In this document: positions 26,406-42,508 of the stretch, piece by piece
Numbering within the stretch: position 1 is the stretch's first letter
Layout of the letters: every line of letters starts with the position of its first letter
Assembly (NCBI GenBank): GCA_005879535.1
Contig: VBKI01000048.1
Span: 1 to 64,000, forward strand
Length of the DNA stretch: 64,000 nt
Direction of reading: 5' to 3'
DNA from: Deltaproteobacteria bacterium
GTDB lineage: Bacteria; Myxococcota; Myxococcia; Myxococcales; 40CM-4-68-19
Translations under genes and position numbers: made by a program
Notes under the pieces: model-generated
Told to the model about the DNA's origin: nothing
Database searches by the model: none
The model's input: the letters and a program-made list of their open reading frames with translations, nothing else

Positions 26406-27770
26406 TTACGCGCGCGGCAGCGAGAGCGCGAAGACGGATCCGCGCGGCCCCGTCTCCCGCAGCTCCGCGCGACCGCCGTGCAGCTCCGCCACGGTGCGAA
26501 CGATCGCCAGGCCGAGGCCGGTGCCGCCGTCGCCGTGCCGGGTGGTGGCGAAGCGCTCGAAGAGGCGATCGCGGATTGCGGGATCGACGCCAGGACCGTA
26601 ATCGCGCACCTCGGCGACGCACTCCGGACCGCCGCTGATCTCCAGCTCGACGCGCTCTCCCTGCGGCGAGTGCTGGACGGCATTGCCGACGAGGTTCTCG
26701 AGCGCCCGGCGCAGCCAGAGGGGATCGCCGCGGACCCGGAAAGGCCCGCTGGCGCGCAGCTCCACCCGCACCCGCCGCGCGGCAGCCGTGGGACTCTGCG
26801 CGTCGACGACCTCCCGGGCGATCGCGCAGAGGTCCACCGGCTCGTCCTTGGGTTCGATTCCGCGCGCTTCGAGGCGGGCCAGTGACAAGAGATCCTGCGT
26901 GAGCTGCTGGAGCTTGTCGGCGCTCTCCCGGATCCGCAGGGCGAACCGCCGCGCGGTCTCCGGCTCGTCGGCGGCGCCTTCCGTCAGCACCTCGGCGGAG
27001 GCGCGAATGGCGGCCACCGGATTCTTCAGCTCGTGAGAGACGTCGGCGACGAACGTCTCCAGCGCGTGCCGCTCCTCCAGCTCCTTGCGCATCGACTCCA
27101 ATGCGTGGGTCAGCTCGCGCACCTCGCGGCCGCGGGGCTCGGGCAAGGGCGCCTGGCGCTCTCCGGCGGCCACGCGCTGCGCCGCGCGGGTCAGCCGCTC
27201 GATGGGCCCGGCAACCGCGCCACCGATCAGAATCGCCAGCGCCGCGGAGGCGACGGCGAACATGAGCGCGAGCAGCGCCACCTTCGGCGCCACGTCGCTC
27301 ATCAGCTGCACCATCCCGAAGGTTGCCTTGCGAACGCGGACGATCCCGCCTCCGGCGACCGGCGCTTCCGCGGAAACGCGGGCAACCCCGGGATGCGCCT
27401 CGCCCGCCTCGAGGACGACGTGGCCCTCGCCGTCGAGGAACGCTACGTCGGTGTCGATGGCGCTGCGGGTGAAGGCCTGCAGGATGGGGCGCAGCGAGTT
27501 GGCCGGCGTCCGCGCAGCGAGCTCCGCGATGGCCCGCGCCTCGTCTTCGGCGGCGCGGGTGGCGAAGAGCGATGCGCGGGCGGTGAAGCGGTCGATCACG
27601 ATCACCGCGAACATGGCGGACAGCAGCAGCGTGGTGGCAGCGAGGGGGATGAACACTTGAAGTCGCAGCGAGAGGCCCGTCCGCCGCGCCTCCACCAGGC
27701 GCGCCGCGGTGGCGCCGACGCCGAGGAGGAACAGAATCGCAAGCGCGAGCAGCAGCTCCTGCCTACCCAT
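26406..27770 (-). CDS. sensor histidine kinase paired with the OmpR-type regulator
   Basis: 454 residues. Transmembrane segments at about 5-23, 38-60 and 164-186, with an extracytoplasmic sensor of about 100 residues between the last two. HAMP (GPIERLTRAAQRVAAGE) follows, then HisKA with FVADVSHELKNPVAAIR (His246). The HATPase_c domain has ALENLVGNAVQHS, VRDYGPGVDP, LFERFATT and GTGLGLAIVRTVAELHGG. The layout is like CreC/BaeS kinases. It overlaps the response regulator by eight bases and is the last gene of a three-gene operon with an ArnT-like glycosyltransferase. Confidence 0.9.
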   Translation of the reverse strand: MGRQELLLALAILFLLGVGATAARLVEARRTGLSLRLQVFIPLAATTLLLSAMFAVIVIDRFTARASLFATRAAEDEARAIAELAARTPANSLRPILQAFTRSAIDTDVAFLDGEGHVVLEAGEAHPGVARVSAEAPVAGGGIVRVRKATFGMVQLMSDVAPKVALLALMFAVASAALAILIGGAVAGPIERLTRAAQRVAAGERQAPLPEPRGREVRELTHALESMRKELEERHALETFVADVSHELKNPVAAIRASAEVLTEGAADEPETARRFALRIRESADKLQQLTQDLLSLARLEARGIEPKDEPVDLCAIAREVVDAQSPTAAARRVRVELRASGPFRVRGDPLWLRRALENLVGNAVQHSPQGERVELEISGGPECVAEVRDYGPGVDPAIRDRLFERFATTRHGDGGTGLGLAIVRTVAELHGGRAELRETGPRGSVFALSLPRA

Positions 27771-28440
27771 CGCGCAGACGGTACCCCACCCCGCGCACCG
27801 TCTCCAGCACCCGCGCGTCGCCGCCCGCCTCCTCCAGCTTGCGGCGCAGGGCCTTGACGTGGACGTCCACCGTCCGATCGCCGACGACCACGTCGCTGCC
27901 CCAGACGGCGTCGAGGATCTGGCTGCGCTCGAAGACGCGTCCCGGGCTGCGCAGGAAGAGCGCCAGCAGGTTGAACTCCGTCCGGGAGAGCGCGAGCTCG
28001 CGCTGGCCGACACAGGCCTTGCGCGTGCGCGTATCCAGGGACAGCAATCCCGCGCGCAGCGGCTTCTCCTCGGCCGGCGCGCTCTTCGCGGCGCGGCGAA
28101 GGACGGCGCGAACCCGCGCCGACACCTCGCGCGGCGAGAAGGGCTTGAGCACGTAGTCGTCGGCTCCGATCTCGAGGCCGACCACCCGATCGGTCTCCTC
28201 GTCGCGGCTGGTGAGCACGATCACGGGGACGTCGCTGCGCCCGCGCAGCGAGCGGAGGAAGTCGAGCCCGTTGCCGTCGGGGAGGACGAGATCGAGGATC
28301 ATCAGATCGGCGTCGCCCGCGAGCTGGCGCGCCTCGCGCAGCGAGGCTGCCTCCGAGACCTCGAAGCCGTCGCGGCGCAGGGCGAAGGCGAGGCTCTCGC
28401 GGATGGCGGGCTCGTCGTCGACGAGGAGGATTTGAGGCAT
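27763..28440 (-). CDS. OmpR/PhoB-family response regulator
   Basis: 225 residues. Receiver domain 1 to about 118 with acidic pocket LLVDDE, phospho-acceptor Asp50 (MILDLVLPDGNG), Thr77 in VLTSRDE and Lys99 in YVLKPFS. The winged helix-turn-helix (about 130-225) has LSRTEFNLLALFLRSPGRVF, DRTVDVHVKALRRKLE and the wing VRGVGYRL. It starts two bases after the glycosyltransferase stop, so the three genes share a transcript. Confidence 0.93.
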   Translation of the reverse strand: MPQILLVDDEPAIRESLAFALRRDGFEVSEAASLREARQLAGDADLMILDLVLPDGNGLDFLRSLRGRSDVPVIVLTSRDEETDRVVGLEIGADDYVLKPFSPREVSARVRAVLRRAAKSAPAEEKPLRAGLLSLDTRTRKACVGQRELALSRTEFNLLALFLRSPGRVFERSQILDAVWGSDVVVGDRTVDVHVKALRRKLEEAGGDARVLETVRGVGYRLRDG

Positions 28441-30471: not shown

Positions 30472-31680
30472 CTAGCGTTTGTCGCGCCAGGTGAGCGTCG
30501 CTGCCATCCGCTCGATGAGCGATGCGCTGCCTCCCGGTGGTTGCAGGACGATCAGCGCCACGGGACCAGCCTCGCGCGACATGCAGGCGGCGCTGACCTT
30601 CGCCTGTCCGTCCTCGCCGTCGATGATGCCGTCGGCGCGCGACGCACCGGGGACCGCCTTCATCGGCGATGCGTCGCCGAGATGGATCTTCTTCAGGCGG
30701 CCGACGTCGGCCAGGCGCCACAGGTCCTCTTCCAGCGCGCCGCGCACCACCCGGTCGCAGGAGCATCCGTGTCCGCGGCAGGACACCGTCTGGATCAGCG
30801 TGGCGGAGCTGCGGAACGAGCCGGCCAGGCCGTTGGAGTACGAGACGACGTTGGCGGAGGCGGCGGCGCGCCGCCAGCCCAGCGGCATTTTCACTTCCAC
30901 TTCGGCGGGACCCTTGCGAAACTGGCCGAGCGCGGGCAGCGCCGGCGCGGCGACCACCCCGAGCGACAGGGTCCCCAGGAGCGCACCGGCCGCCGCGGCC
31001 AGCCTCCGCGCAGCCGCTTCGCCAGGCCAGTGACGGGGAGTGAGGAAGCAGCCGAGGATCGCACCGGTCAGAAGGCCACCGCCGTGGCCCCAATTGTCCA
31101 CGCCCGCCGATCCGAGTCCGGCCGCGAACAGTGCGAGCAGCCAGGGAACGATGCGCAGGCCGAACCAGGAGCGCAGCGTGCCGCGCACGCCACGGCGCCA
31201 TCCGAACGTCACCGAGGCGCCCAGGACGCCAAAGGCCATGCCGGAAGCGCCCAGCGAGATCGAGTCGGCGCCGATGGCGGAGACCAGCGTGGTCCCCAGC
31301 GCCGTGAAGATGAGCAGCGCGAGGTAGTCCGCCGGCCGCACCGCGCGCTCCAGCGCGCCGCCCACGTTCCAGAGCGCGAAGGCGTTGAAGGCGAGGTGCA
31401 GGGGATCCTTGTGCAAAAGGTTGGCCGCGAACAGCCGCCAGGTCTCGCCGCGGTCGAGGATCAGGGGGGTCGCCTTTGCCCCATACAGCAGCAGGGAGGG
31501 AAGGCCGACCCCGGAGCGCAGGCCGGACGCCGCCAGGAGCATCCAGAGCGCCGAAAGCAGCATGACGATTGTCACCCACGGAACACCGGAGATGGACAAT
31601 CCCTCGGATGCAACCGGGCGAAGCGCGGCCGATTCCGCTGCCGGTTGTGCAAAAGTGGCTTCTTCCGTCCACGCCGCCAT
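30472..31680 (-). CDS. rhomboid-family intramembrane serine protease with C-terminal extracytoplasmic domain
   Basis: 402 residues. ANLLHKDPLHLAFNAFALWNVG carries the first-loop residues and the oxyanion-helping Asn/His, LGASGMAFGVLG holds the catalytic Ser146 (GxSG), and DNWGHGGGLLTG holds the catalytic His199. About six transmembrane helices make up residues 30-265. After them come some 140 residues (KMPLGWRRAAASANV onward) with four Cys, unlike the compact rhomboids; this part is unknown. It diverges from the FHA genes, 59 bases apart, which may mean common control. Confidence 0.85.
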   Translation of the reverse strand: MAAWTEEATFAQPAAESAALRPVASEGLSISGVPWVTIVMLLSALWMLLAASGLRSGVGLPSLLLYGAKATPLILDRGETWRLFAANLLHKDPLHLAFNAFALWNVGGALERAVRPADYLALLIFTALGTTLVSAIGADSISLGASGMAFGVLGASVTFGWRRGVRGTLRSWFGLRIVPWLLALFAAGLGSAGVDNWGHGGGLLTGAILGCFLTPRHWPGEAAARRLAAAAGALLGTLSLGVVAAPALPALGQFRKGPAEVEVKMPLGWRRAAASANVVSYSNGLAGSFRSSATLIQTVSCRGHGCSCDRVVRGALEEDLWRLADVGRLKKIHLGDASPMKAVPGASRADGIIDGEDGQAKVSAACMSREAGPVALIVLQPPGGSASLIERMAATLTWRDKR

Positions 31681-31739
31681 TTGCTCTAGGATGAGCACGA
31701 CGGGGCCGAGGCGGCAGGCCCCCGCCGGGTCCAAGGAGC

Positions 31740-33575
31740 ATGATGAAGCTGATCATCGAGGACGACGAGGGTCGAAAGACCGTCGTCCCACTGGTACGCG
31801 ACGAGATCACCATCGGACGGCAGGATGGGAACACCATTCGCCTGACCGAGCGGAACGTCTCGCGCCGCCACGCACGGCTTCTCAAGGAGAACGGGAACGT
31901 CCTGATCGAGGATCTGGGCTCGTACAACGGCGTCCGCGTCAACGGCGAGAAGATCACCGGACGGACGCGGATCAAGGAAGGGGACCTGGTCGAGATCGGC
32001 GACTACGATCTGGGCATCCAGGGGAAGCTCGACGCGCCCGTGATGACGCCCGCGGCCGGCACCACGCGTCCGCCGACGATTCCTCCCGGCGGACTCAAGC
32101 CGCCCCGTCCCCCCACCCTGCCGCCGCAGGCCATGCCGGGCGCACTTGGAGCGGCACAGGCCGCGTTCGCGTCGGAGAAGACGGCTCCGGCCGTACAGGC
32201 GCCGATCCCGCCGCCCGCGGTGACGCCCAATCCGACGGCCGGAGGCGCGACCGCCATCATCCGCGTGTCGGACCTTTCCAAGGCAGGTCCCCAGGTAGAA
32301 GCGCGCGACCTCGAGCGATCCGAGATGCCGCGGCTGGTGGGACTCGCGGGGCCGTTCCGCGGCAAAGAGTTCTACCTCATGCGCACGGAGGTGAAGTTCG
32401 GACGCACGGACGAGAACGACATCGTCGCCGACCACCAGTCCGTCTCGCGAGCACACGCCCGTTTCGTGCTCGACGAGGGGCACTGGAAGGTGATCGACAA
32501 CAAGAGCGCCAATGGCGTGCGCGTCAACGGCGACGAGTACGCGGTGTCGAGCCTGAAGCCGGGCGACGTCCTCGAGCTGGGCCATCTCAAGTTCCGCTTC
32601 TGCGCGCCGGGGGAAAAGTTCTCCCCGCCGCCGGAGAAGGGCGAGAACGGCGCGCAGAAAGGCGGCCTCAAGCCCACCACCGCCGAGCTGATCGCAGGAG
32701 CGCAGGGGCGCACGCCCTCTTCCGCGGCGCGCAAGGCCGGCAGTCGGGGAAGGCTTGCGGTCATTCTCGCCGCGCTGGTCGCCGTCGGCGCAGCCGCGTT
32801 CTTCTTGACGCGCTCCCGCAAGCCGGCAAGCCCCGAAGAAGCTACCGGCGAGGACGCGGTGAAGGCTGGCGACGCGCTCTTCAAGCAGCGCAAGTACGTC
32901 GCCGCGATGGAGATGTACGAGAAGGCCGGCAGCAGCCCGACGCCGAACCGGAAGAAGGCGGCGGAAGAGGCGCGCGGTGAGGAGGTCTACAACGCGCTGC
33001 GCGCGGCGATCGCCGCGGGCGACGGCGACAAGGCGCGCAACCTCTTCGAGCGCTGCTCCGCGGAGTCGACGTACTGGTGCCAGCAGACGCAGGAGCAGGC
33101 CGACCAGGTGAAGGCCGTCTACGCCAACAAGCATCTCGCCAACGCGAATTCGTTGAAGTCAGCGGGGAAGTTGGACGCCTGCGCCGCCGAGGCGAGCAAC
33201 GTGCTCGCCTTCGACAGCGGCAATGCGCAGGCGCTTGCGCTGCAGAGTCAGTGCCGGCCGCAGGAGGCGGCGAAGACGGAGTCGGCGCGCGAGGAAGGGC
33301 CGAGCCCGAAGGAGCGCGAGGTCAAGGCGTCGCGGCTCGCGCAGGCCTCGTCGAACAAGCTGGTGGCGCGCGACTTCGGCGGGGCGGTGAAGGACGCGCA
33401 GGCGGCGCTGGCCCAATCGCCAAAGGACAAGAACACGCTGATGCTCTCGTACCGCAGCCTCGGGTACGGATACGCGTACCTCAACGACAAGGGCAACGCG
33501 GTCAAGTGGCTGGAGAAGTACCTCCCGTACTGCACCAACGACTGCGACCAGGTGCACGCCTTCATCGGGAAGTGA
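31740..33575 (+). CDS. double-FHA transmembrane protein with C-terminal helical repeats
   Basis: 611 residues. FHA domain 1 (about 1-95) shows TIGR, NVSRRHAR and NGVRVNG, the phosphothreonine-binding pattern. A Pro-rich linker (100-165) precedes FHA domain 2 (about 197-290; KFGRTDENDI, SVSRAHAR, NGVRVNG). A Lys/Ser linker, one transmembrane helix (about 338-356) and a TPR-like helical region (370-611; GDALFKQRKYVAAMEMYEKAG) follow. The N-terminus is cytoplasmic, the repeats probably periplasmic. FHA domains read phosphorylation by Ser/Thr kinases, which myxobacteria carry in large numbers. AAGGAG precedes the ATG-ATG start. A paralogue follows after two bases. Confidence 0.88.
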   Translation: MMKLIIEDDEGRKTVVPLVRDEITIGRQDGNTIRLTERNVSRRHARLLKENGNVLIEDLGSYNGVRVNGEKITGRTRIKEGDLVEIGDYDLGIQGKLDAPVMTPAAGTTRPPTIPPGGLKPPRPPTLPPQAMPGALGAAQAAFASEKTAPAVQAPIPPPAVTPNPTAGGATAIIRVSDLSKAGPQVEARDLERSEMPRLVGLAGPFRGKEFYLMRTEVKFGRTDENDIVADHQSVSRAHARFVLDEGHWKVIDNKSANGVRVNGDEYAVSSLKPGDVLELGHLKFRFCAPGEKFSPPPEKGENGAQKGGLKPTTAELIAGAQGRTPSSAARKAGSRGRLAVILAALVAVGAAAFFLTRSRKPASPEEATGEDAVKAGDALFKQRKYVAAMEMYEKAGSSPTPNRKKAAEEARGEEVYNALRAAIAAGDGDKARNLFERCSAESTYWCQQTQEQADQVKAVYANKHLANANSLKSAGKLDACAAEASNVLAFDSGNAQALALQSQCRPQEAAKTESAREEGPSPKEREVKASRLAQASSNKLVARDFGGAVKDAQAALAQSPKDKNTLMLSYRSLGYGYAYLNDKGNAVKWLEKYLPYCTNDCDQVHAFIGK

Positions 33576-33577
33576 GC

Positions 33578-35263
33578 ATGAAGCTGATCATCGAAGACGA
33601 TGAGGGGCACAAGACCGTCGTTCCCGTCGTCCGTGACGAGATCACCATCGGCCGCAACGACGGGAACATCGTCCGGCTCGCCGAGAAGAACGTCTCGCGG
33701 CAGCACGGCAGGCTGCTGCGCGAGTCGGGGCACTACTACATCGAGGACCTGGACAGCTTCACCGGCATCCGCGTCAACGGCGAGAAGATCGCCGGAAAGC
33801 ACGTCGTGCAGGACGGCGATCTGATCCAGATCAGCGAGTACGATCTCATCCTCGAGGAAGGTCCCGACGACCGGGCGCCGCCTCCGCCGGTTCCGCAGAT
33901 CGACACCGAGGCGCAAGCCCGGAGGATGGCCGAGACCGCCACCATCCGTCTCTCGGATCTGCGCCCGGCGGACGTGGAGGTCCCCGCGCAGGACGTTCCG
34001 CCGGGGCAGCGGGCGAAGCTGGTCGGCATCTCCGGCAAGCATCGCGGCGAGGAGCTGGTGCTCGGCCGCAGCCCCATCCGCCTCGGCCGGTCCGATGAAA
34101 ACGATCTGCAGATCGAGCACCCGTCGATCTCGCGCAAGCACCTGCGCCTCCACCTCGACAACGGCACCTGGAAGGTGATGGACGCGGAGTCGCGCAACGG
34201 CGTCCGCGTGAACGGCGAGCCGTATGCGCAGATCGGCCTGCGCCATGGCGACGTTCTCGAGGTGGGCCACCTGCGGTACGCCTTCGTCGAGCCCGGGCGC
34301 GCCTTCCAGCTCCCGCCGGAGCTGACGCCTCTGGCATCGGCCCCCCTGGCGTCGCCGCCCACGCGCACCGGCCTCTGGGTAGGCATCGGCATCGCCAGCG
34401 TTGCGCTGCTGGCTGCGGCGATCTTCCTCATCCTGCGGAATCGGGCCGATGCGGAGATCGCGCAACGCCTTCGGGTGCAACGCGCCGAGAAGCTCCGCGT
34501 GGCGCAGGAGCTCGTGGCCGCGCATCGGTACACCGAGGCGTACCAGAACCTCGACTCCGCGCGCCGGCTGGGCGCGAGCGCGGCGGAGCTCAAGGATGTG
34601 GATGCGGTGGAGCGGGAGTCCCGCGCCGAGGATCTCTACCGGGAGATGGAGACCGCCATCGCAGCGCAGGATTGGGATCGGGCGCGCAAGCTGTTCGAGG
34701 CGCTCTCCGCGACCCAGACGTTCCATGGTGCAAAGGCGGCGGAGAAGGCCGATGTCGTCAAAAATGCCTACGTCAACGCTCATCTCGGCACCGCTGTCCG
34801 CCTCCGCGGCAACGACAACGCCGGCTGCCTCGCGGAAGCCCAACTCGCCCTTTTGGCAAATCCGCAGAACGCCGAGGCCCGCGCGCTCACCGAAGCATGC
34901 AAAGCTCCGGCGGCGTCGGCAGCGCCGGCCCGGCCCCCGCGCACCGCTCCTGCTCGCGTCGCTGCCGCACCCCGCGCATTCGACGAGGCGGAAGCGCGGC
35001 GGCTGCTCACCGAAGGGAACCAGAAGCTGCTCGCGCAGGATCTCTCCGCGGCGATCGTGCTGTACCAGAAGGCGCTCACGCTAAAGCCGGGCAAGTCCGT
35101 TCTCGCCGGGCTATATCGGAGCATGGGCATCGCCTTCACCCGGCAAGGGAACATGGAAGAGGGCGCGCACTATTACCGGCTTTATCTCCCACTTTGCGGC
35201 AATGCATCCGAAAGGGCGCAGCTGCAGAAGGTCCTCGATGATTACGATGTCCGAAGGCGCTGA
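33578..35263 (+). CDS. second double-FHA transmembrane protein, paralogue of the upstream gene
   Basis: 561 residues with the same plan: FHA 1 (about 1-92; TIGRNDGN, NVSRQHGR, TGIRVNG), linker, FHA 2 (about 146-238; RLGRSDENDL, SISRKHLR, NGVRVNG), transmembrane helix (266-287) and a helical repeat domain (AEKLRVAQELVAAHRYTEAYQNL, ending in a TPR-like ARRLLTEGNQKLLAQDLSAAIVLYQKAL). The first 25 residues nearly match those of the upstream gene, so this is a tandem duplication that has since diverged. In FHA 1 the usual Asn before GxRVNG is Thr. It ends 82 bases before the Rec-XRE gene. Confidence 0.88.
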   Translation: MKLIIEDDEGHKTVVPVVRDEITIGRNDGNIVRLAEKNVSRQHGRLLRESGHYYIEDLDSFTGIRVNGEKIAGKHVVQDGDLIQISEYDLILEEGPDDRAPPPPVPQIDTEAQARRMAETATIRLSDLRPADVEVPAQDVPPGQRAKLVGISGKHRGEELVLGRSPIRLGRSDENDLQIEHPSISRKHLRLHLDNGTWKVMDAESRNGVRVNGEPYAQIGLRHGDVLEVGHLRYAFVEPGRAFQLPPELTPLASAPLASPPTRTGLWVGIGIASVALLAAAIFLILRNRADAEIAQRLRVQRAEKLRVAQELVAAHRYTEAYQNLDSARRLGASAAELKDVDAVERESRAEDLYREMETAIAAQDWDRARKLFEALSATQTFHGAKAAEKADVVKNAYVNAHLGTAVRLRGNDNAGCLAEAQLALLANPQNAEARALTEACKAPAASAAPARPPRTAPARVAAAPRAFDEAEARRLLTEGNQKLLAQDLSAAIVLYQKALTLKPGKSVLAGLYRSMGIAFTRQGNMEEGAHYYRLYLPLCGNASERAQLQKVLDDYDVRRR

Positions 35264-35345
35264 TGTGGGCGCGGAACGCACCGCATTCGCGGTAGACGAT
35301 CGCACCGGTCACCCTGTAGATTCCGTCGCCCGAAGGGGTGGCACG

Positions 35346-35939
35346 GTGGATATCCGCACTCTGGTGGTCGACGACGATCAGGATTCCTGCGACCTGATCG
35401 AGCGCATCCTCAAGCGGGAGGGATACCGCGTCGCGACGCTCACCGACCCACGCAAGGTGGAGGACGAGCTGCGCAAGGCGGACATCCATCTCGCCATCGT
35501 CGATCTGAAGATGCCGGATCTCTCCGGGTTGGACGTCGCGCAGATCATCAAGCGGCACGACTCCGACTGCTCCGTGATCCTCATGACCGGGTACGCGACG
35601 CTGGACTCGGCGGTGAGCGCGTTGCGGTACGGCGTCGTCGACTACCTCCGCAAGCCGGTCCGCGAGGACGAGCTGCTCGGCTCGGTGAACCGGGCGCTGG
35701 CGGCGAAGGGACTCTCGCTGCTGCCGGAAGAGGAGCTGCACCGGAACATCGGCACCTGCATCCGCGACCTGCGCAAGAAGCGCTCGCTGACGTTGAAGCA
35801 GCTGGCGAAGCGGACCGGGCTGTCGGTGTCGCTGCTGTCGCAGATCGAGCGGGCGGAGAGCAGCGCCAGCGTGACCTCGCTGTACAAGATCGCGCACGCT
35901 CTCAAGATCCGCCTGCCGGAGCTGTTCGCGCGCGTCTGA
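35346..35939 (+). CDS. response regulator with XRE-type helix-turn-helix output
   Basis: 197 residues. Receiver domain 1 to about 120: VVDDDQDS acidic cluster, Asp53 phospho-acceptor (AIVDLKMPDLSG), Thr81 (LMTGYA) and Lys103 (LRKPVRE). The output is an HTH_3/XRE domain at about 138-192 (LRKKRSLTLKQLAKRTGLSVSLLSQIER). XRE domains normally belong to phage-type or SinR-like repressors, and their fusion to a receiver is uncommon. The GTG start follows GAAGGGG by about eight bases; an upstream ATG at 35247 overlapping the FHA gene is the alternative. No partner kinase is adjacent. Confidence 0.85.
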   Translation: MDIRTLVVDDDQDSCDLIERILKREGYRVATLTDPRKVEDELRKADIHLAIVDLKMPDLSGLDVAQIIKRHDSDCSVILMTGYATLDSAVSALRYGVVDYLRKPVREDELLGSVNRALAAKGLSLLPEEELHRNIGTCIRDLRKKRSLTLKQLAKRTGLSVSLLSQIERAESSASVTSLYKIAHALKIRLPELFARV

Positions 35940-36018: not shown

Positions 36019-36231
36019 CTACTTGAGCACCACCAGCACGTCCCCCTCGCTGACCGGCTGCGTCTCCTTGCACCGGATCTCCGCGACCCGCCCGTCCTCG
36101 GGCGCCTCGACGGGCATCTCCATCTTCATGCTCTCGAGGATCACCAGCACGTCGCCGGCCTTCACTTCGTCGCCGACCTTCTTCTCGATCTTCCAGACGG
36201 TGCCGGTGATGTGGGCGGGGACGTCGGGCAT
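36019..36231 (-). CDS. minimal biotinyl-domain carrier protein
   Basis: 70 residues consisting of one biotin/lipoyl domain: GTVWKIEKKVGDEVKAGDVL, then the biotinylation hairpin ESMKMEMPV (Lys in the MKM motif) and a closing GDVLVVL. BCCP of acetyl-CoA carboxylase is usually 150 or more residues with an N-terminal extension; this one is only the carrier domain. It starts one base after the stop of the biotin carboxylase gene, so the pair acts together. The acyl-CoA specificity depends on a carboxyltransferase not present here. Confidence 0.88.
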   Translation of the reverse strand: MPDVPAHITGTVWKIEKKVGDEVKAGDVLVILESMKMEMPVEAPEDGRVAEIRCKETQPVSEGDVLVVLK

Positions 36232-36232
36232 G

Positions 36233-37591
36233 TCAGAGCCTCTCCAGGAAATGGGTGTCGAATTCGCCGCGCGCAAAGGCGTCGCTCGCGAGGACCTTCA
36301 GGTGGGTGGGAATGTTGGTCTTCACGCCCTCGATGGAAAAGCGCTCCAGCGCTCCACGCATGCGCGCGATGGCCTGGTCGCGCGTGTCCGCAAAGGCGAT
36401 CATCTTGGCGAGCAGCGAGTCGTAGTACGGCGTCACGGTGTCGCCGGCGCGATAGCCGGCGTCGATCCGGACGCCGTCGTGGAACGTCCCGTCGGCCGGC
36501 ACGGGAGCATCGAAGCGCTTCACCGGTCCCGGCGAGGGGAAGAACTTCACCGGATCCTCGGCGTTGATCCGGCACTCGATGGCGTGGCCGCGGGGACGCA
36601 GATCGTCTTGCCCCAGCGGGAGCTTCTCGCCGGCGGCGATCCGCAGCTGGAGCTGCACGAGATCGAGTCCCGTGGTCGCTTCCGTCACCGGATGCTCGAC
36701 CTGGAGGCGCGCGTTGAGCTCGATGAAGTACACCTCGTCGCCGACCAGCAGGAACTCGCAGGTGCCCGCGTTCGCGTACCCCACTGCCCGCGCCGCGCAA
36801 AGGCCCGCGTCGAGGAGCTTGCGCAACACCCGCGGTCGCGGCTCGGGTAGATCGAACGCCGGAGGCGGCGCCTCCTCGATGACCTTCTGGTGCCGCCGCT
36901 GGATGGAACACTCCCGCGCCCCCGCCGCCAGCGTCAATCGGCCGTCGCCGAGGATCTGCACCTCGACGTGGCGTGGCCGCTCGAAGTACCGCTCGAGGTA
37001 CACGGCGTCCTTCCCGAACGAGGCGCGCGCCCGATCCGAGCATGCCCGCAACGCCTTCATCAGCTCCTGCTCGTCGCGCGCGACCTGCATCCCGATGCCG
37101 CCGCCGCCCGCCGCCGCCTTCACCAGCAGCGGATATCCGAGCGACGACGCCGCGGCCTTCGCGCCGACCTCCTCGCCGACATGCCCCTCCGAGCCCGGCA
37201 CCACCGGAACGCCCGCGGCCCGCATCACCGAGCGCGCCTGCGCCTTGTCCTTGATCGCGCGCATCGCACCGGGCGGCGGGCCCACGAACACGATGCCCGC
37301 CTGCGCGCAGGCCTCGGCGAATTCCGCCTGCTCAGAAAGGAAGCCATAGCCGGGATGGATGGCGCGTGCTCCCATCTGCCGGGCAGCGGCGAGAATCTTC
37401 GCTCCGTCGAGATAGCTCTCCCGCGCCGGCGGCGGTCCCAGGCGCACCGCCTCGTCGCACGCCTCGACGTGGAGCGCCTTCGCGTCCGCGTCGGAAAAGA
37501 CGGCGACAGTCTTGACACCAAGCGCCCGGGCCGCTCGCGCCACGCGGCAGGCGATCTCGCCGCGATTGGCGATGAGGATCTTTTCGAACAA
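36233..37591 (-). CDS. accC: biotin carboxylase
   Basis: 452 residues. ATP-grasp enzyme that carboxylates biotin on its carrier. FEKILIANRGEIACRV opens the family, HPGYGFLSEQAEFAE follows, and the glycine-rich ATP loop is KAAAGGGGIGM. HVEVQILGD, CSIQRRHQKVIEEAP and FIELNARLQVEHPVTE give the metal and bicarbonate sites. The C-terminus shows TNIPTHLKVL. Full length. It could serve acetyl-, propionyl- or another acyl-CoA carboxylase; the symbol is the general one. Confidence 0.9.
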   Translation of the reverse strand: MFEKILIANRGEIACRVARAARALGVKTVAVFSDADAKALHVEACDEAVRLGPPPARESYLDGAKILAAARQMGARAIHPGYGFLSEQAEFAEACAQAGIVFVGPPPGAMRAIKDKAQARSVMRAAGVPVVPGSEGHVGEEVGAKAAASSLGYPLLVKAAAGGGGIGMQVARDEQELMKALRACSDRARASFGKDAVYLERYFERPRHVEVQILGDGRLTLAAGARECSIQRRHQKVIEEAPPPAFDLPEPRPRVLRKLLDAGLCAARAVGYANAGTCEFLLVGDEVYFIELNARLQVEHPVTEATTGLDLVQLQLRIAAGEKLPLGQDDLRPRGHAIECRINAEDPVKFFPSPGPVKRFDAPVPADGTFHDGVRIDAGYRAGDTVTPYYDSLLAKMIAFADTRDQAIARMRGALERFSIEGVKTNIPTHLKVLASDAFARGEFDTHFLERL

Positions 37592-38187: not shown

Positions 38188-39426
38188 TTACTCCCCATTG
38201 CGCAGGAACGTCGGGACATCCAGCTCGTCCTCCGACGCTCCGGTGAGCTGCCGCAGCTCTTCCCACGAGAGGTGCCGCACCGGCTTCTGCGGAGGCGCCG
38301 GCGTCACCCGCGGCGGAGCCGGAGGAGGCGTCGCCGCGCGGTGGATCTCCGGCGTCCGCTGCGGCGCCGCGTGACGCGGTCCGGCCGGTTCCGTCGTCTG
38401 AGGCATCGCCAGCGTTCCCTGCGTCGGTCCGCGCACCTGCCGGGTCGCATCCAGCCGCTCGATCCGCCGCGCGTCGCGCGTCGTGAAGCCGGTGGCGATC
38501 ACCGTGATCTTGAGCCGGTCGCCCATCGCGTCGTCGATCACGCTTCCGAAGATGATGTTCGCGTCCTCGTGGGCGGCCTCCTGGATCAGCGAGCAGGCCT
38601 GGTTCACCTCGACGAGGGTCATGTTCCCGCCGCCGGTGATGTTGATCAGGATGCCGGTGGCGCCGTCGATCTGCACGTCCTCGAGGAGCGGGCTTTCCAC
38701 CGCCGCCCGCGCGGCGACCATCGCCCGCGTCTCTCCCGTCGCGGTGCCGGTGCCCATCAGGGCCACGCCCATGTTGCTCATGATCGTGCGCACGTCGGCG
38801 AAGTCGACGTTGATCAGTCCGGGAATGGTGATCAGATCGGAGATGCCCTGCACCGCGTTGAGCAGGACTTCGTCAGCCTTCTTGAACGTGTCGAGCAGCG
38901 TCGTCTTCTCGTCCGCGACGGCGAGCAGGCGCTGGTTTGGGATCGTGATCAGCGTGTCGACGGTGTTCTTCAGCTCGGCGATTCCGTGATCGGCCTGCTT
39001 CAGCCGCCGCTTGCCCTCGAACATGAAGGGCTTGGTGACCACGCCCACGGTCAACGCTCCCACGCCGCGGGCGATGTCGGCGATGATCGGCGCGCCGCCC
39101 GTGCCGGTCCCGCCGCCCATGCCGGCGGTGACGAACACCATGTCCGCCCCCTCCAGCGCCGCCGCGATCTTCTCGCGGTCCTCGAGCGCCGCCTGCCGCC
39201 CGATCTCCGGGTTCGCGCCGGCGCCCAGTCCCTTCGTCACCATCGCGCCGAGCTGGATCTTGGTGGCCGCGCGGTTGTGCTGGAGCGCCTGGCAGTCGGT
39301 GTTCGCGGCGATGAAGTCCACGCCGGTGAGGCCGGCGAGGATCATCGTGTTCAGAGCGTTGCCGCCCCCTCCGCCGACGCCGACCACCTTGATCTTCGCG
39401 CCGAGCTCACCCGTCATCTCGTTCAT
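38188..39426 (-). CDS. ftsZ: cell division GTPase FtsZ
   Basis: 412 residues, tubulin homologue that forms the Z ring. [16 protein letters not shown] is the N-terminus of the Rossmann domain, [13 protein letters not shown] is the tubulin signature at about 98-110, and [14 protein letters not shown] and the [12 protein letters not shown]7 loop follow. A Pro/Ala-rich linker (about 340-385) ends in [12 protein letters not shown], the conserved C-terminal peptide that binds FtsA. The start at 39426 has GGAGGGG upstream; ATG 39441 overlaps the ftsA stop. Last gene of the dcw cluster. Confidence 0.97.
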
Positions 39427-39440
39427 GACCCCTCCGGCCA

Positions 39441-40667
39441 TTAGAACAGCTCCTTGACCCAGCTCAAGAATCGCTCCCGGATCGACGCGCCATCGCCGGC
39501 GCCCAGATAGGCGCGGTTCTGCGTGCCTTGCCTCGCGCCGTAGAGGAGCAGGCCCACCGCGGTGGCATGCTGCGGGCTCTTCACAACGTCGGTGAGGCCG
39601 CCGATCCCGCGCGGCAAGCCGCGGCGCACGGGCAGCCCGAGCACCTCCTCGGCCAGCTCCGGCATCCCGTGCAGATTCGTGGTTCCCCCCGTGAGGACCG
39701 CCCCGCTCGCGAGCAGATCCTCCTGGCCCGCTTTCTGGATCTCGCGATGGATGAGCTGGAACAGCTCCTCCACCCGCGGCTCGATGATCTCGCAGAGGAT
39801 GCGCCGGTTGAGCACCCGCGGGGCGCGGCCGCCCACGCTCGGCACCTCGATGGTGTCGTCCTTGTCCAGGCTCGCGCTCTGCGCGCTGCCGAACTTCACC
39901 TTGATCTTTTCCGCCTCGACCATCGGCGTGCGCAGACCGACGGCGATGTCGTTGGTCAGATGGTTGCCGCCGAGCGGGATCACGCTCGTGTGCTGGATGG
40001 CCCCGCCGGAGAAGATCGCCAGATCCGTCGTGCCGCCGCCGATGTCCACCAGCGCGACGCCCAGCTCCTTCTCCTCTTCCGCCAGCACCGCCTCCGCGGA
40101 AGCGAGCGGCTCGAGCACGATGTCTGCCACTTGCAGCCCGGTCCGGCCGCAGCACTTGACGATGTTCTGGGCGCTGCTGACCGCCGCGGTGACGATGTGC
40201 ACCTTCGCTTCCAGGCGCACTCCGCTCATTCCCAGCGGCTCGCGGATGCCGTCCTGCTCGTCGATGATGTACTCCTGCGGGAGGACGTGGAGGATCTCGC
40301 GGTCCTGCGGAATGTTGATGGCGCGGGCGGCATCGAGGACGCGCTCGAGATCGCCCTGCTTCACTTCCTTGTCCTTCACCGCCACCACGCCCTGCGAGTT
40401 GAAGCCGCGGATGTGACCGCCGGCGATGCCCGCATAGACGGCGCTGATCTCGGCCCCGGCCATCAGCTCCGCTTCCTCCACCGCCTTGTGGATGGAGGAG
40501 ACCGTCGCCTCGATGTTGATCACCACGCCTTTGCGCAGCCCGCGGGAGGGGTGCGTGCCGATGCCGATCACGTCGATCCCGCCGGGATTGACCTCGCCGA
40601 CGATGCAGCAGATCTTGGTGGTCCCGATGTCGAGCCCGACGACGATTTCGCCCTTCTTCTGCGCCAT
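39441..40667 (-). CDS. ftsA: cell division protein FtsA
   Basis: 408 residues, actin-fold protein that ties FtsZ to the membrane. [18 protein letters not shown] is the phosphate-1 loop, [21 protein letters not shown] lies in the 1C domain, [15 protein letters not shown] is phosphate-2, and [21 protein letters not shown] is the adenosine motif. It ends in the amphipathic membrane anchor [10 protein letters not shown]. It starts six bases after ftsQ. Confidence 0.96.
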
Positions 40668-40673
40668 GGTCGG

Positions 40674-41504
40674 CTACCTCTTGTCGGCCAGGGTGGCGGC
40701 CGCCTGATCGGGACGCGCCGGGTTGTCGAGATCGATCCGCTCGGCCCGCTCCCCGCGGCGGGCCAGCGCCGCGCGCATCTGCGCGAGCCGCTGCAGCTTC
40801 AACGAGACGTCGCCCGCGCCGAGGCGGACCTCCTGCACGGCGCCGCCGTCGTGCGCGAAGACGGTGAAACCACCGCCGTCCTCCAGGCGGATCTCCGAGA
40901 CTGTCCCGAGCGAGAGTCCCGAGGCCTGCCAGGTATCGAGCAGGTGGAGCGCGGCGAAGAGGCGGAGCTGCAGGTCGGGCTTTCGGTCGACCCACGCCTG
41001 CCGCGAGATGCCGGTGAGGATGGGAAGGTCGAGCCCGTCGTCCGCCACGGCCCGCTTGAAGAGGCGACCTTCGTCGTCGAGGACGTACAGCCCTCCGAGC
41101 TCGACCAGCGCCGCGGGCCGGTGCTCGGCGATGCTCGCCACCACCTCGCCTGGAAGCCTCCGCTCGAGCCGCGCGGAGGCGACCCAGGGGTCCGCCTGGA
41201 TCGCGCGCGCCGCGCGTGAAAGGTCGGCAAGGAGCAGGTTCTCGCCAATCCGCAGGCCACTGCGGTGGAACAGGTCCGGCTCGCGCGCGTGCACGAGCCC
41301 GCTGAAGTGGACGGTGCGCAGCGCGAACGCGTCCGATGCCGTGGCCCATTGCCAGACCTGCCATCCGACGAAGCTCAGTGCGCCGCTGACGGCCGCCGCG
41401 GCGACGGTACGCAACAGCGCGCCGAACATCGATCGCCAGGCGGCGCGATCGAGCTCGGCTGCGGCCCGCCGCACCTGGGCCATCTGCAAGGCCTTGAAGG
41501 TCAT
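40674..41504 (-). CDS. ftsQ: cell division protein FtsQ
   Basis: 276 residues, bitopic divisome protein that links FtsZ-side and FtsI/FtsW-side proteins. Cytoplasmic N-terminus of about 28 residues, one transmembrane helix (about 30-50, [20 protein letters not shown]), then the POTRA domain ([52 protein letters not shown]) and the FtsQ beta domain ([21 protein letters not shown]). The ATG overlaps the murB stop (ATGA). Confidence 0.93.
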
Positions 41505-42508
41505 GGTCGCGCCCCCTGCCGGGACTTCGCAGAATCGGGACCCGCCGGCTGGAGATGGTGAGGTTCCAGCTCCCCCGGGAGCGGCGGGTCGAAGTCGCCG
41601 ACGAGCCGCACCTCGGGCTTCAGCTCCACGCCGGCCTTCGCCAGCACGGTAGCGCGCGCCAGCGCGATCAACTCTACGACGTTGGCCGCCGTCGCGCGTC
41701 CGAGATTGACGATGAAGTTCGCGTGCCGGTCGCTGATCTGCGCCCCGCCGCGCGTAGTCCCCTTCAGCCCGGCCTGCTCGATCAGGCGGCCCGCGAAATC
41801 CCCCTTGGGGTTGACGAACACGGAGCCCGAATTGGGCAGGCCGAGCGGCTGGGTGGCGCGGCGCCGATCGACATCGGCTTTCGCCACCTGCTGCTGTTCG
41901 GCCAGCTCCGCATCCGAGCCGCGCCGCACCTTGCACCGCGCACGCGTCACGATGCAGCCGCGCGGCAGCTCGCAATGTCGGTAGCCCAGATGCAGATCCG
42001 CCGCGTCGATCCAGCGCAGCCCTTCCGCCGCCGCCACCTCGACGGCGAGGAGATGGTCGGCCATGCATCCCAAAGGCGTCCCGGCGTTCATCGCCACGAG
42101 CCCGCCGACCGTACCGGGAATCCCTGCAGCCCAGGCGACGCCGATACCGTGGTGCTCCCGGGCAAGCGACAGGAAGCGCGCGATCGCCGCTCCTGCCCCG
42201 AGCGTGAACACGACCGAGTCGCCTCGGCTGTCCACCTCTTCCGGCGCCAGATCCTGCCCCAGCCGGATCACGGTGCCGTTGACGCCCCGATCGCCGACGA
42301 TCGTGTTCGCTCCACCTCCGAGCGAAAGCCAGGGCATCCCGGCGTTGGAGAGCACGGCGAGCACCTCGATCAGCGCCTTGGGGTCGTTGGGGCGCACCCA
42401 GAATTTCGCCGAGCCGCCGACGCGCACGCTGGTGCGCGGCGCCAGCGGCGCCATCTCGATCACCTCGCCGCGCGAAGCGCGGCGCAGATCGGCGAGAAGC
42501 GCCCTCAT
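41501..42508 (-). CDS. murB: UDP-N-acetylenolpyruvoylglucosamine reductase
   Basis: 335 residues. FAD/NADPH enzyme making UDP-MurNAc. [13 protein letters not shown] and [23 protein letters not shown] bind [24 protein letters not shown] is the classic motif, and [27 protein letters not shown] holds the catalytic Ser. A Tyr-containing loop that marks type I MurB is not obvious, so it looks like type II. It overlaps both neighbours by four bases. Confidence 0.95.

Follow-up and report, generated by a model that had tools for sequence, protein, structure and literature searches.

Introduction

The closest described counterpart of the locus analyzed here is the SgmT/DigR system of Myxococcus xanthus. 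In this system, the response regulator DigR, an orphan composed of a receiver domain and an HTH_Xre domain, is phosphorylated on D53 by SgmT, an orphan hybrid kinase with the domain order GAF-HK-REC-GGDEF (PMC3509222). DigR binds to a palindrome in the fibA promoter, the outer part of which is TAATC-N14-GATTA, and FHA proteins are not mentioned in that study (PMC3509222). For comparison with FHA proteins, three systems are relevant, i.e., OdhI of Corynebacterium and GarA of Mycobacterium, the FHA-GGDEF protein DgcB of Bdellovibrio (PMC6733907), and the inner-ring proteins of the YscD type (PF16697).

The DNA under study, in the following "the window", is a stretch of 64,000 nucleotides, in which two genes for FHA membrane proteins, FHA1 and FHA2, precede the gene of a Rec-XRE regulator. 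The original prediction, made from the sequence, had named these three genes, and all of them were found where it had placed them. It had also assigned the whole set to a pathway that has not been described. This was wrong for the regulator, which is assigned below as an orthologue of DigR and thus of the partner that the kinase SgmT has in Myxococcus (PMC3509222), but it holds for the FHA partners, since no paper linking an FHA protein to DigR was found in the open-licence literature.

Results

Organization of the locus

The genes of the locus and its immediate neighbors are:

31743..33575, + strand: FHA1 gene (FHA-a, disordered linker, FHA-b, transmembrane segment, TPR), 610 amino acids
33578..35263, + strand: FHA2 gene (FHA-a, linker, FHA-b, transmembrane segment, TPR), 561 amino acids
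35346..35939, + strand: gene of the Rec-XRE regulator, assigned as a DigR orthologue, 197 amino acids from GTG
30472..31734, - strand: rhomboid protease gene, divergent from FHA1 and conserved in the class (context, no pathway role claimed)
36019..37591, - strand: biotin carrier and biotin carboxylase genes, convergent neighbors that form a conserved block (context only)

The open reading frame of FHA1 spans 31740-33575, and the second ATG at 31743 is the better start. The spacing between FHA2 and the regulator gene is 82 nt. The regulator most likely starts with the GTG at 35346 rather than with the ATG at 35202, because homology to its relatives begins there and the phosphorylated aspartate then becomes D53. 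Division and cell wall genes (ftsZ, ftsA, and others) are located close downstream, from 38188-42508 onwards, and the order ftsZ - carboxylase - digR is kept in the class. A pair of a histidine kinase and an OmpR-type response regulator is encoded a few kb from digR (26406-28440); the kinase (26406-28013) was rejected as a partner of DigR, because it is paired with a response regulator encoded next to it. A scan of the locus for promoters and terminators yielded nothing above chance.

The regulator is an orthologue of DigR

The fusion of a receiver with an XRE domain was confirmed, with scores of 94.8 bits for the receiver and 52.8 bits for HTH_3/XRE. The two functional features are:

35502..35504, + strand: codon of Asp53, the phosphorylation site at the same position as in DigR (PMC3509222)
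35760..35924, + strand: HTH_3/XRE DNA-binding domain

With an N-terminal receiver, a C-terminal HTH_Xre domain, and a length of about 200 amino acids, the protein has the domain structure of DigR. It is 85-96% identical to its counterparts within its own family (f1) and 55-59% identical to the Rec-XRE proteins of the closest-matching genera of the large-genome, Myxococcus-type family f4. Across 89 sequences, residues 148-182, the region surrounding the recognition helix, hardly vary, and D53 is kept. Therefore, the operator of the window protein is probably the same as that of Myxococcus DigR. Like DigR, it is encoded by an orphan gene without an adjacent kinase gene (PMC3509222). Taken by its sequence features and its neighborhood, which is that of the Myxococcus protein, the regulator is best assigned as a DigR orthologue.

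The Myxococcus gene was identified as digR by its domains, D53, and its uniqueness rather than by a sequence record. In genome G127 of genus g24, the DigR orthologue is the sole receiver-bearing XRE frame among 13 of the 14 listed frames of 160 amino acids or more, one frame of 558 amino acids having been left out of the survey. The 24-nt fibA operator is present, exactly or with one mismatch, in all 27 genomes of g24, and we therefore infer that this genus is Myxococcus or very close to it.

For 28 FHA genes, the preceding 300 nt were found to contain no DigR operator above chance, and the window contains 48 matches versus 39 expected. An autoregulation of the FHA genes by DigR was thus rejected. 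A one-mismatch version of the outer palindrome (CAATC-N14-GATTA) is present at positions 10-33 of the window and may be due to chance.

The FHA proteins have two FHA domains, one membrane segment, and a TPR-like domain

The features of FHA1 and FHA2 are:

31806..32000, + strand: first FHA domain of FHA1, canonical GR, SRRH, and NG
32250..32252, + strand: codon of Thr170 of FHA1, the invariant Thr of the linker motif TAIIR, aligned with OdhI T15
32391..32582, + strand: second FHA domain of FHA1, canonical
32754..32810, + strand: transmembrane segment of FHA1, residues 338-356
32850..33569, + strand: C-terminal TPR-like helical hairpins of FHA1, residues 370-609
33641..33832, + strand: first FHA domain of FHA2, NG changed to TG (Thr62 codon at 33761-33763)
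33935..33937, + strand: codon of Thr120 of FHA2, the counterpart of Thr170 of FHA1
34076..34267, + strand: second FHA domain of FHA2, canonical
34379..34435, + strand: transmembrane segment of FHA2, residues 268-286

Both paralogues indeed share the proposed order: each contains a pair of FHA domains, then a single hydrophobic segment, and a helical repeat at the C-terminus. The FHA domains are well above the Pfam cut-off (112 and 106 bits in total), and the two proteins are 36% identical over their whole length. Their first 25 residues had been described as nearly identical, and 23 of the 25 aligned residues do match, but the start MKLIIEDDEGRKTVVP is typical of almost all orthologues of the order and is not specific for the pair. 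The phosphopeptide-binding motifs Gly-Arg, Ser-Arg-x-His, and Asn-Gly are complete in three of the four domains, the exception being the first domain of FHA2 with TG instead of NG. As the binding residues are mostly kept, the suggested read-out of phosphopeptides by the FHA domains is plausible.

The Pfam TPR matches are weak in the window proteins (0.0008 and worse), while they are clear in orthologues (down to 2e-15), and a profile of 33 sequences of the FHA family matches consensus TPR structures. The AlphaFold model of FHA1 contains FHA-like strands, a transmembrane helix at 338-358, and helical hairpins with a pLDDT of about 90; the model is good per domain and was not used for the domain arrangement (pTM 0.30). 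Each FHA protein has one transmembrane segment, the N-terminal flank of which has a net positive charge that usually exceeds that of the C-terminal flank. In addition, FHA1 proteins of f1 have four to six cysteines in the C-terminal part versus one or two in the larger N-terminal part. Flank charge and cysteine distribution favor FHA domains inside the cell and a TPR domain in the periplasm, and the orientation originally proposed is thus the easiest reading of the topology. The transmembrane segments are unusually rich in Gly in f4. At the same locus in f7, one FHA gene (L107 5617-6360) stops after 247 amino acids, without the TM-TPR part.

The FHA sequences are similar to that of DgcB, which likewise has an FHA domain with a self-derived Thr tail (PMC6733907). 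However, the FHA-TPR proteins have no GGDEF domain and no enzymatic output. The similarity to YscD-type proteins includes matches to Pfam Yop-YscD_cpl and the arrangement of cytoplasmic FHA, one transmembrane segment, and periplasmic domain. In contrast to YscD-type proteins, the window proteins contain TPR instead of ring-building domains and canonical phospho-binding residues, and no secretion genes were seen beside the FHA genes.

A conserved threonine in the linker aligns with the phosphothreonine of OdhI

The linker of FHA1 (residues 87-182) has a pLDDT below 50 and is hard to align with the exception of T170, which is invariant in alignment A1. The pattern T-[AS]-[IVTL]-[IVLD] was found in 62 of the 69 FHA frames scanned; 60 were counted, leaving out L156 for its aberrant distance and L152, which departs at +3. 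In most of these, the motif reads TA/S-I/V-I-R and lies 47-50 residues before the GR of FHA-b. Among the seven frames without the motif, FHA-b was not located in four, one contains a near-match (GGTAVMR), and two are FHA proteins of the reduced-genome genus g19 in which the motif is absent.

When a profile of the segment with this motif was used, OdhI was the first match (5.8e-17) and T170 was aligned with OdhI T15 (QVETTSVFRADLL), with moderate alignment confidence at this end. Phosphorylated T15 is the self-bound residue of OdhI, and hydrophobic residues at +2/+3 and Ser at +1 have been described in the same publication (PMC6733907). Among solved structures, the FHA fold is closest to OdhI/GarA, and as in these proteins a Thr motif is found N-terminal of an FHA domain at a conserved spacing. 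In contrast to OdhI/GarA, the window proteins have two FHA domains, a membrane anchor, and TPR, and the Glu at -2 of OdhI is mostly absent. Phosphorylation of the Thr is a prediction. The alignment with the OdhI phosphothreonine suggests a switch operated by Ser/Thr kinases. As foreseen in the original prediction, such kinases are encoded in the genome (about 29 genes), none of them on the contig of the window.

The tandem FHA genes are a family-specific duplication

In a tree of 33 FHA proteins, FHA1 groups with the single copies of f1 in one clade (99/99), the FHA2 copies form a separate clade (100/100), and the single f5 protein is placed weakly beside FHA2 (90/84). The duplication therefore took place at the base of f1 or slightly before it. 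Having two FHA genes in tandem is specific to the family of the window, while the usual form elsewhere, including Myxococcus, is one FHA gene together with digR. Within the dataset, G008 has one FHA copy, and the second copy of G010 is short (205 amino acids, L100 3363-3980) and apparently decaying or frameshifted. The change from Asn to Thr in the NG motif of the first FHA domain is present in every FHA2 copy inspected, and the single copy of f5 likewise has Thr, while both FHA domains of the window FHA1 are canonical. Judged by these residues, one binding face, that of the first domain of FHA2, was altered after duplication.

The linkage of FHA genes with digR extends beyond SgmT

In each of the 66 informative genomes of the class, which represent 30 genera of f1-f4 and f10, the gene that immediately precedes digR on its strand is of the FHA-FHA-TM-TPR type; informative are DigR-bearing genomes of these families with contigs that reach far enough, while those of G102 and G135 end too soon. 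The upstream genes carry the start signature KLIIEDDEGRKTVVP or a close variant. The gap to digR is 11-220 nt, with the exception of G110, where it is 544 nt behind a truncated FHA frame. The random scatter in other genomes that had been named as a refutation of the original prediction was thus not observed. Rhomboid, biotin carrier, biotin carboxylase, and ftsZ genes around the FHA genes and digR are also largely conserved within the class. Therefore, the adjacency in the class could be due to inheritance of the block and is weak evidence of function.

Two independent cases of linkage are found outside the class. In f16 (L152), which belongs to a distant class, the two genes share an ATGA overlap, and none of the genes of the rhomboid/carboxylase block was found near digR. 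In f11, which belongs to another class, the FHA gene is located 1.5-1.7 kb upstream of digR in five genomes, and it is convergent and adjacent to digR in one genome. In G154 (f12), digR is present and an FHA gene was not found nearby. The contigs of G152 and G148 are short. The f11 genomes that were read have a divergent gene between the FHA gene and digR, and this gene encodes Rec-PilZ in the two genomes scanned, with a weak GAF match in one (L150 3984-5309 and L146 3629-5020); the PilZ domain of L150 keeps RxxxR-like and DxSxxG motifs. As SgmT also binds c-di-GMP, a c-di-GMP input to the locus may be recurring. Conversely, f5, f7, f9, and G009 have FHA genes at this locus without an accompanying digR, a distribution that was sampled only. 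Therefore, the FHA proteins must also have another function.

An SgmT candidate with the published landmarks is encoded in G127 (G127:C1:5780108-5782612); H336 is exact, and D615, R763, D766, and R794 are displaced by one residue in our own count. Two other GGDEF proteins, L084 and L085, were rejected as SgmT because of their domain order. Among 145 genomes of the order that were searched, SgmT orthologues are present in most of f4 and in f2 and f3. In 16 of about 106 DigR-bearing genomes of the order, no SgmT match better than E 1e-60 was found, namely all ten of f1 and G100, G101, G133, G030, G134, and G135. In contrast to Myxococcus, full-length SgmT was not found in any of the 12 genomes of f1, nor was it found in the genomes of g19, g37, and g38 or in seven genomes of f10, f11, f12, and f16. 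The best match in the genome of the window covers only residues 311-690 of 835 at 38%, and the matches in the family are generic kinase-domain matches. This absence refers to one query at one sensitivity and includes some incomplete genomes, while the genome of the window is rated 100% complete. As SgmT is missing from f1 and other DigR lineages, the FHA-digR linkage reaches further than the pairing of DigR with its known kinase. SgmT-like proteins are also encoded in genomes of f7 without digR (G017:C1:1145267-1146784 and G023:C78:6672-8234, residues about 108-645, 43-46%).

Discussion

The chances are somewhat better than even that this is the myxobacterial digR locus with a duplicated upstream FHA gene, and that an FHA face passes the state of the envelope to the DigR pathway. 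The computed basis comprises DigR orthology, conserved linkage, domain order, the T170 motif, the family-specific duplication, and the finding of no SgmT; from it we infer T170 phosphorylation, the membrane topology, and any action on DigR. As known in Myxococcus, phosphorylation of D53 would tune the binding of DigR, probably as a dimer, to operators at extracellular matrix genes. The FHA proteins would cross the inner membrane once, with both FHA domains in the cytoplasm and the TPR domain in the periplasm, where it may sense or scaffold envelope proteins. T170 in the linker is likely to be phosphorylated by a Ser/Thr kinase, and phospho-T170 could then be captured by an FHA domain, either in cis, as in OdhI/GarA, or in trans, so that a binding face opens or closes. 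To pass on the envelope state, this face would bind DigR itself, the kinase of DigR, or a regulator of DigR. The gene order is suggestive of FHA proteins acting on or with DigR.

It is unlikely, although it has points in its favor, that the FHA gene and digR are neighbors only by way of the conserved block, in which case FHA-TPR proteins would serve envelope or division functions and DigR would answer to histidine kinases alone. The conservation of the entire block in the class, the persistence of FHA genes where digR is absent, and the lack of a shared operator would all be expected. However, f16 retains the linkage and f11 retains it loosely, although the other genes of the block were not found near digR in either, and the two genes are co-directional with short gaps or even the ATGA overlap. 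It is distinctly improbable that the Rec-XRE protein of the window's family is not a functional counterpart of DigR and has another kinase and another regulon. The failure to find full-length SgmT in the family fits this idea, but the almost unchanged recognition region together with D53 indicates that the operator is probably the same, and the high identity within the family also argues against it. Least probable is regulated proteolysis, in which the divergent rhomboid would cleave FHA-TM-TPR in the membrane segment and free the FHA part, with DigR as a bystander: in most of the class, the rhomboid and FHA genes are divergent neighbors whether digR is present or not, and the segments of f4 are very rich in Gly, but f16 and f11 keep the FHA-digR linkage without a rhomboid gene, several genomes have no rhomboid at the locus, and an N-inside topology is not the usual form of a rhomboid substrate.

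Returning to the FHA proteins as an input to the DigR pathway, a more far-reaching evolutionary version is tentative. FHA-FHA-TM-TPR might be the ancestral membrane input of DigR, with T170 set by kinases and TPRs reading the envelope. SgmT would have been added later in part of the group, and in f1 the input would have been duplicated and the first phosphopeptide site of one copy altered.

DigR controls the extracellular matrix of Myxococcus, and hence motility and fruiting, and its inputs beyond SgmT are the gap addressed here. The regulator has already been described, and the new part of the locus is the FHA genes. For a component of the DigR pathway that has yet to be described, the FHA membrane protein is a good candidate. 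As a conserved neighbor that is kept without SgmT, it is a directly testable candidate input for DigR, and it may represent a junction between Ser/Thr kinase signaling and a two-component regulator.
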